Notes under the pieces: model-generated | Told to the model about the DNA's origin: nothing | Seen by the model: only the letters and a program-made list of their open reading frames with translations | Databases searched by the model: none | Shown: in pieces, positions 56,001 to 59,000 of the stretch | Position numbering within the stretch: the stretch's first letter is position 1 | Layout: each line of letters starts with the position of its first letter | NCBI GenBank assembly: GCA_949358305.1 | Contig: OX442315.1 | Coordinates: 33,074,427-33,134,426 of the forward strand | Source: Strigamia acuminata | Taxonomy: Eukaryota; Arthropoda; Chilopoda; Geophilomorpha; Linotaeniidae | DNA length: 60,000 nucleotides | Direction of reading: 5' to 3' | Made by a program: the position numbers and the translations under genes

Positions 56001-59000
56001 CTTTCACTGCCTTTTTCCAGTGTCTGTGGGTTCCAGCACTTTCAGAGAGCGGGCCACAAACATTTAAACCTGTTCCAGGCCTTCTATTTTGTCGTGGTCA
56101 CCTTGGCGACTGTGGGCTACGGGGACTTCGTTCCTGACATCTGGCCCTCTCAGCTTTTTATGGTCATCATGATATGTGTTGCTCTCATAGTCCTCCCTAC
56201 GCAGGTAAAAACATCAACTGGAGGCAACCGTCGTGTGTAGTTGTTAATACACCCTCCTCCGGCAATGTTTTTCACCTGGTGTTTTATATGTAGTAATTTA
56301 TTGATGACTTGCAGCATGACTGCATGTTTTGTTTGGGCTGGATGCGAAGGGTTAAGGTCGCCTTTAAAACTTTCTTTATTTAGTCAAGTTTTCCTTATTT
56401 TCTTTTCTCATTTGCTACTTTTTCATTTTTCGATATTTTCCCTTTATCGTTTTTTATTTTTATTTTATTATTATTCTTTTTCTTTTTTCAGTGTTTTATT
56501 TTATTATTCATCGGTGTTTTTCTGTGTTATAAAAATTGATTTAGAATTTTATTTTGCAAGAATTTTTAATACGGGAATTTATTGGGAAAAATTAAAGCGA
56601 ATGATTAAATCTGCTGGCCATTAGTCACATTAGTGAAACAGTTCTTTTTTCATAAGAATTGCGTAACGATATTAATGCGGTAATTATTTTTAAATGGCGT
56701 ATATTTATTTATACAGCGATAGAAAAGGCTTTTTTCAACCGTTGGTTGAAGTATTAAAAGGAGTTGTGCAACGAAACCGAGTACAATAAAATCAGCATAG
56801 ATTTTTCACCTGGATTTTATTGGTAATTGTAAAAAAAATTAAAATCAAATCGTAAAATGTGAGGTTGGCTTCACTGTAAAGTTTTAGTGAACGGCAGTGA
56901 AGCTTACGTCTTTATGACTCAAAGCCAGCTCAGAACTGGCGAGGGATTGTTTTAAATTAGTGCAAAATGGAAACTTTCACTCTAATTCACACAACCATTG
57001 TATTTTAAATTGCTACTTGATCTTTCTCGAGTATAATATTAATTTTATTCGTCTTTAATAATTAATTTCAAGCCCTACAATATAACTTTTAGTGAGCCTG
57101 GGAATTTGGAAGTTTAGAATGTTTAAAATGTTTAGAAAGTTGAAGGTAAACTCGGTTGAACAATTCAAAAGTCATAATTTTTCAATAAAGTTTTACTTTT
57201 CTTGCGTTTGGAAGTGGGAATGGATGGTTGCTATTGGCAATGGCCTCTTCTCCTCCCATTACAAAAATTCTACGAGTAGATCCACAAAGGAGCCCCACGA
57301 TACCTCGTTTGATGTGTTTGATTTTATGGTTATAGCGGAAGGCGTGATTAAGTTTGTTTTTACGTTAGTAGACTAAAGTTGAGTATTTCAGCTTCAGATA
57401 ATGCGTCATTTACTGTATAAATACTGTATCAGCTGTAATATACTGAATTCAATTGAGATAACCACGTCTCATATTTCAAACTCTTGCAAAATAAGAAATT
57501 ATTTATTGTGACTTGCAATAAAAGTATGGTATAGCTACAGCTAGTTAGAATTGCGACTGACATCACCCATTTCAAAACGTTTGCTGCTTGTAGTAATGCA
57601 AGATCCTTTTTATCAAAATTCTGCCACATTTGATTATTCTTGTAATTTGGCAGTTACTTTGGTTGATTTTCACAGCCAATTTGACCAACTTGTTGGTTTT
57701 ATTGCTGAATTTGTCAAATTTATAAATTAGATGTAAAATGTTGAAATGAGCAGCAGCCATTTGATTTTGTTTCGTGTCAGTAGCAACTCTATTATCTGCC
57801 TATAAGTCAGCTGCTTTAATGTTCAGGTACACAATGAATGGATATTTTTCTAATGTCAGGACAAGATCACCATACATCAACTTAAACTTTTTATGATTCA
57901 TTGAAGTGCCAAGTCACTATACAACGGACATTACGGTCATTAATCATAGCTTAAAACTTGAAATCTGCCTAGAAGCAGTGAAGATTTTTTTTAAAAAAAT
58001 TTTATTCGTTGAACGGGTTTAAAATGCCCGAATCACTCGAGTATTATTGTTGATGAAAAATCACGTGGTTTGAAAACCATCGCATCATCTTCTCTCTAAA
58101 AGTTGGTCGATATTTAACAGGATTTATTGCAAAAAATGTTTTGAAATCCAATTACCCGCTGCAAAGCAAACACGCCATTTCTTAGTTCGGCGTGTTTGTT
58201 AGCTCATTAGCCTAGTTTCCCTATACGGCAAAGAACTGGTTCTCATACATTTGCACTTACTAACTATTAACTAAAGCTTGAATCTCTAACTAAACTGATT
58301 TCCACTTGTTTCCGAAGCCCTGGTGACGAGACACATGAAATTGTTGTGTATTTTAGTGCAATAATTCTCCCAAACCGTATTACTCGTAGTATGCGTAAGG
58401 TTTTATAATTTCTTTTAATTTCTTTTGTTTAGTTTTCTGTGAATGTTTTCTTGTCTTTCAGTGTGTGTGGTTTCCAGCATTGCCAAAGGGCTGGTCGTCG
58501 CCATTTGACCCTCTTCCAATCATTGTATTTTGTGATTGTCACTTTCTCAACAGTGGGGTTTGGCGACCTCGTGCCCGACATCTGGCCCGCCCAGTTGTAC
58601 ATGTTGATCATGATCTGTATTGCCCTCATAGTGTTACCTACTAAGGTAATTAGTGGTTACTCAAATGACAAATCCTTCCACGCTAATCTTACTCGTTCTT
58701 CCCCATCTGTGCCAGCACGTGCATGGTTCGATTCGCTCACACTGCAGTTTCTAATACAATTTTATTTGTCTGCACTTTGAAGTTGCTTGAACTTTGCATG
58801 GTCTCATGTCATTTTCCTTCTTTGCTCTTCGATTTATCCACGTTCAAGATGTTGGGGTCTCTCGTACAGAGCGCAAATCTAACCTGGCCGTTCGAAATAC
58901 ACGTTGCGATCAATAGCAACTTGGGAAAAGAGTTGCAACATTACCATGGCAACGCACACATAATATGTTTACAAGTTAAATCTAGCTGCGGGTGTAGAAA

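Follow-up and report, generated by a model that had tools for sequence, protein, structure and literature searches.

Can one Slo2 (KCNT) gene supply channel subunits with two different selectivity filters? Few parts of any channel are as constrained as the K+ selectivity filter, and the human Slo2 members are epilepsy genes. In the DNA analysed here, a stretch of 60,000 nucleotides from the centipede Strigamia acuminata that is referred to as the window in this study, a sequence-only reading had noticed a Slo2/KCNT gene whose exon for the pore loop, the filter and S6 is present twice, and had proposed that the two copies are mutually exclusive, giving channels with either TVGYGD or TVGFGD.

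The gene and its duplicated pore exon

The gene lies on the + strand, filling the final 13 kb of the window and the next 5.7 kb beyond it, and its coding span runs from a proposed ATG at 46861 to a stop at approximately 65729 (window numbering). The exon model was built from alignment to KCNT1, tblastn with a relative (P0002), reading frames and splice sites, and 27 coding exon positions were mapped together with their splice sites. Exons 24 and 25, which are outside the window, disagree in phase as cut, and a small exon may be missing between them. The exons that fall within the window are as follows:

46861..47069, + strand: exon 1, with the proposed ATG, ending in phase 2; tblastn with the P0002 N-terminus, E 1.7e-8; donor CAG/GTGCAT
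47837..47916, + strand: exon 2 (27 protein letters); KCNT1 alignment, splice sites
50864..50963, + strand: exon 3; KCNT1 alignment, splice sites
52160..52249, + strand: exon 4; reading frame, splice sites
52491..52539, + strand: exon 5; KCNT1 alignment, splice sites
52653..52712, + strand: exon 6; reading frame, splice sites
53849..53923, + strand: exon 7; KCNT1 alignment, splice sites
53999..54082, + strand: exon 8 (25 protein letters); KCNT1 alignment, splice sites
55150..55244, + strand: exon 9 (S5), ending in phase 2; KCNT1 alignment, splice sites
56021..56204, + strand: exon 10a, with the turret, the pore helix, the filter TLATVGYGD and the first part of S6
58462..58645, + strand: exon 10b, the alternative copy, with the filter TFSTVGFGD
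59909..60000, continuing to 60073 beyond the window, + strand: exon 11, phase 0, with the end of S6 and the start of RCK1

The gene is predicted to encode a Slo2/KCNT potassium channel, in agreement with the identity proposed for it earlier. For both pore exons, the top three matches in the structure bank are KCNT1 (best E 8.6e-24 for 10a and 1.8e-22 for 10b), and the next channels follow at E 3.8e-7 and 5.3e-6, respectively; Pfam Ion_trans_2 is matched at 1.2e-12 by 10a and at 2.6e-11 by 10b. KCNT1-like exons reach 65.4 kb, and the rest of the gene is Slo2-like across both RCK domains, with downstream matches to PF03493 (BK_channel_a) at positions 33135668 and 33135965 of the contig (C3), beyond the window. 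PF22614 and PF03493 occur together in 116 of 120 relatives (the best 120 of 1610).

Exons 10a and 10b are 184 nt each and are separated by 2,257 nt. AG precedes and GT follows both, and their phases are alike, as both start in phase 2, with the first base completing a codon, and end on a codon (phase 0). When the coordinates were re-read and the lengths, spacing, phases and open frames recomputed, all of these agreed with the original description, as did the number of shared residues (45 of 61, corresponding to 131 of 183 bases). The filter centre, Tyr in 10a and Phe in 10b, is indeed residue 314 when counted from the ATG placed at 46861, and the pore helix reads TLA in 10a and TFS in 10b, as stated earlier. 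A repeat search of positions 54000-60000 detects the two copies as a direct repeat of 194 nt with 73% similarity, and the GC content of the two exons is 0.51 and 0.49 versus 0.33 in the intron between them. The Slo2 gene carries duplicate pore exons, both intact and well preserved. A third pore copy was sought by tblastn of both exons against positions 1-66000 (window numbering), and beyond the pair itself the best E was 0.41.

Two more Slo2-like genes are found in the same orientation at C3:32982190-32990600 and 33007433-33019900 (L024, L025, L027, L028), approximately 55 to 92 kb before window position 1; together with the window gene they make up a cluster of three in tandem. A pore exon pair was looked for in both of these upstream paralogues, and a single pore exon, carrying TVGYGD and far more diverged, was found in each. 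In the upstream-most gene there is an apparent second copy of a late exon (DMDL.QATKNEIMYV.INPN; window-relative positions -83927 and -77538, 6.4 kb apart), which is perhaps a partial duplicate gene.

Repetitive elements were noted as well. A minisatellite with 4.9 copies of a 30-base unit is present in intron 8 (54116-54265), and another, with 9.9 copies of a 31-base unit (46357-46663), lies approximately 200 bases before the proposed start codon. On the - strand, a stop-to-stop frame of 720 codons (30804-32966) has the look of a retroelement gag-protease, with zinc knuckles and DTGAG, and adjoining long frames of 773 and 340 codons (4844-8192) give the impression of a mobile-element gene.

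Reality and possible use of the two copies

Are the two exons a true pair, and is the pair old? The three introns flanking 10a and 10b gave no blastn match with each other at E 0.01, and no intron similarity was seen in the four flanking 30-base blocks, which share 8 to 13 of 30 bases. Because the flanking introns are without similarity, the duplication is most likely old and hardly an assembly artefact. Between the two copies, the NG86 dN is 0.16 and dS is not computable, which reads as saturation; a recent duplication was rejected on the grounds of the unrelated introns and the non-computable synonymous distance. The sequence-only reading had itself raised the doubt that the second copy might come from an artefact or a collapsed paralogue. 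A paralogue or a second haplotype placed in tandem by the assembly would be made more plausible by the two upstream Slo2 genes on the same contig, as they tell us that local duplications happen. However, the pore exons that these genes carry are more distant, being the next in similarity with 56% and 52% identity to 10b; 52 of the 183 bases differ between 10a and 10b; and the joined stretch, which is free of N, is part of a contig of 37.8 Mb. Searches with the 10a DNA and the 10b protein placed each copy at a single site in the assembly, which makes a collapsed paralogue unlikely. We therefore regard an artefact of either kind as extremely improbable.

The arrangement of the frame bears on how the copies can be used. 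Upon translation, a transcript including both 10a and 10b is frameshifted and meets a stop at the end of 10b, while a transcript skipping both is frameshifted and meets a stop in exon 12. As both or neither breaks the frame, only one-at-a-time use would yield a channel. A steric block or a U2/U12 mismatch is unlikely to be the cause of exclusion, since the intron is 2,257 nt long and both exons are of the GT-AG type. Pairing between introns was assessed by a crude method, in which one of three whole-intron duplexes stands out: the observed energy was reached by 0 of 11 shuffles for intron 9 with the intron after 10b, by 6 of 20 for intron 9 with the middle intron, and by 19 of 20 for the middle intron with the intron after 10b. 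Splice sites were scored with a matrix made from the gene's own other exons (24 acceptors and 24 donors). The donors score 8.8 (10a) and 7.8 (10b), with the 24 others ranging from -1.0 to 10.1, and the acceptors score 2.6 (10a) and 8.2 (10b), with the 24 others ranging from -5.3 to 13.8. The 10a acceptor is weak, as only three of the others are lower and one is equal.

This weak acceptor would fit with only one copy being used and the other being silent or dying, as would the departures from near-constant residues, one in 10a (S29A) and two in 10b (S43A and Q61K). Alternatively, the unused copy might be a poison exon, spliced in to shut the gene down through nonsense-mediated decay, and the stop created at the end of 10b when both copies are joined is what such an exon would give. 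However, there is no decay in either copy. Neither has a stop or a frameshift, even though the frame stays open in only 1793 of 20000 shuffled versions of 10b, and most near-invariant columns are kept (18 of 19 in 10a and 17 of 19 in 10b, counting columns of residues 17-61 whose conservation reaches 95% or more across 62 distinct pore segments). The 52 base differences are distributed as 11, 6 and 35 over codon positions 1, 2 and 3, an excess at third positions with a binomial p of 6e-7; because 35 of the 52 fall there, both copies appear to have been kept as protein. A poison exon, moreover, would not need to conserve a filter. Use of a single copy, in either form, is in our judgment unlikely. 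As for the mutual exclusivity proposed earlier, its marks are visible in the DNA, namely adjacent and homologous exons of equal length and phase, each with its own splice sites, and the frame logic; that both copies are used is what we infer from them.

The explanation that we favour, and hold to be likely from the sequence, is that the pore exon of an arthropod-like Slo2 gene was duplicated in tandem long ago and that either 10a or 10b, exclusively, is spliced between exons 9 and 11, yielding two filter types from one gene. The two predicted subunits would have the RCK domains and the remaining membrane segments in common and would differ in the turret, the pore helix, the filter centre and upper S6, so that the choice of exon would change the ion path, not the gating ring. 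Exclusivity would be enforced at least by frame loss and nonsense-mediated decay. The isoforms might be expressed in different cells or stages, and they may mix in tetramers.

The two pores within the Slo2 family

Between 10a and 10b, 16 residues differ: by our reading, the turret accounts for four, the pore helix with its approach for five, the filter centre for one (Y to F), the position directly following the filter for one, and S6 for five, of which the final one, next to exon 11, is a Q to K change from 10a to 10b. The filter motif of 10b, TFSTVGFGD, is that of vertebrate KCNT2, on which 10b might have converged or which it might have kept, while that of 10a is TLATVGYGD. When compared with ordinary arthropod pores, 10a agrees at up to 54 of 61 residues and 10b at up to 49 of 61, so by residue identity 10a comes closer to them and 10b is the more diverged copy.

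To place these motifs, 232 proteins were collected from three merged searches (the best 120 of 1372, 12 of 12, and the best 120 of 1610) of a protein database clustered at 90% identity, in which isoforms are merged and a second pore of a gene is hidden. The filter is readable in 231 of the listed proteins, with Y at the centre in 172 and F in 59. By protein name, the 59 with F comprise 55 from vertebrates (KCNT2, some named KCNT1), three from snails, and P0002. Every named arthropod with a readable filter among the matches listed has Y. The helix motif is VTFS in 222 of the 232 listed proteins, VTLS in seven, and VTYS, VTFA and VTLA in one each, the VTLA being from a snail and accompanied by F; a TLA helix together with a Y filter, as in 10a, was not seen among the 232. 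Judging from these sequences, both Y and F filters are natural in Slo2. The proteins with TVGFGD include shark and carp proteins named KCNT1 (P0199, P0216, P0227, P0232 and P0129), and in vertebrates a Y filter, as in the KCNT1 structures, may be the derived state.

These counts qualify the earlier statement that one gene could make two different ion pores. The exons do differ at the filter residue, but the claim goes further than the sequence, as GYG and GFG are both natural in Slo2. Because both occur in the family, both isoforms would be expected to conduct K+, and the switch would be expected to affect the basic choice of K+ less than it affects unit conductance, open-state stability, rectification and the sensitivity to blockers or ions.

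A stronger effect might come from the pore helix, where one position, L in 10a and F in 10b, aligns with Phe240 of KCNT2. This residue is the F of TFS in the KCNT2 proteins with a motif beginning at residue 239, and changing it from Phe to Leu is reported to lead to a loss of K+ selectivity and a gain of Na+ permeability (PMC6992647; PMC13007567). F346 of KCNT1 was considered as the corresponding pore-helix Phe and rejected, as the KCNT1 chain numbering in the structure bank puts residue 346 at the end of S6; because of this position, the argument from Phe to Leu is drawn from KCNT2 F240 only. By analogy, a splice switch between two K_Na pores might alter selectivity, with 10a passing Na+ and 10b being strictly K+ selective. 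We consider this quite improbable. Leu is natural at that position of the helix, being present in 8 of the 232 motifs (the seven VTLS and the one VTLA), and 10a need not be leaky because ticks and three molluscs carry Leu there.

How old is the pair? A tree of 35 rows was made without the pore exon; its deeper forks are not fully settled, its root serves only for display, and a mite row has a very long branch. In this tree the window gene and P0002 are joined with a support of 100/99; they fall outside the group of insects and crustaceans (100/100) and are separate from the chelicerate rows, a placement that points to a myriapod or some other arthropod outside Pancrustacea. P0002, the closest relative, has the F filter TFSTVGFGD. 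This allows the reading that the two pores are an ancient pair of the whole lineage (e.g., the myriapods), as in NALCN, with 10b and the F pore of P0002 as orthologues. In its favour, P0002 has the motif and a stretch of 16 residues in common with 10b, and the three pore segments are roughly equidistant (50 of 61 residues for P0002 and 10a, 49 for P0002 and 10b, 45 for 10a and 10b), as would be the case if duplication and split were of equal age. However, a pore tree rejects neither a clade of 10a and 10b (p 0.36) nor a clade of 10b and P0002 (p 0.34), and the P0002 protein shows one pore. A lineage-wide pair is, in our opinion, possible but somewhat less probable than its absence. As this reading concerns the age of the pair, it is compatible with the exclusive splicing of 10a and 10b that we favour.

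Comparison with known systems

Vertebrates have two genes, KCNT1 and KCNT2 (Slack and Slick), where the window gene has two exons. The KCNT1 structure chains carry TFSTVGYGD and the KCNT2 proteins TFSTVGFGD, so that the window gene holds both filter types, although the helix of 10a carries L and A. Given the F filters of the shark and carp proteins named KCNT1, Y and F do not simply follow the split between the two vertebrate genes. Among K+ channels, alternative exons for the pore region are present in lobster (Panulirus) Shaker, of the Kv1 family.

A search of the open-access literature, which is weak evidence of absence, found no report of mutually exclusive or alternative pore exons in Slo2 or K+ channels. 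In this respect the earlier remark that no case has been described for Slo2 is in line with our search, but a filter swap by exclusive exons as such is known from NALCN. NALCN exons 15a/15b and 31a/31b are tandem duplicates over the P-loop, described as mutually exclusive, that swap a residue of the selectivity filter, and the 31a/31b pair is reported in myriapods and chelicerates (PMC3557258). What appears to be new at this locus is the presence of both Y and F filters in one Slo2 gene; among the 232 proteins listed, with isoforms merged at 90% identity, no second gene with both was seen. As in NALCN, the exons cover the P-loop and differ at a filter residue, here GYG versus GFG. NALCN, however, is described there as a four-domain cation channel in which one domain is changed, the E/K swap switching between Ca-like and Na-like filters, whereas Slo2 is a K+ channel of like subunits, each of which is changed by the exon, with a Y/F swap. 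A looser parallel is the splicing of the exon 12 turret in invertebrate Cav3, where alternative splicing near the pore is reported to change ion selectivity; Cav3 is a calcium channel, and it is the extracellular turret, not the filter, that is altered (PMC6259924).

If both copies are used, two filters in otherwise identical subunits would amount to a natural experiment on the filter-centre residue and the pore helix in Slo2. The pair would also extend exclusive pore exons from a cation leak channel to K+ channels, with an invertebrate choosing between exons where vertebrates use separate genes.
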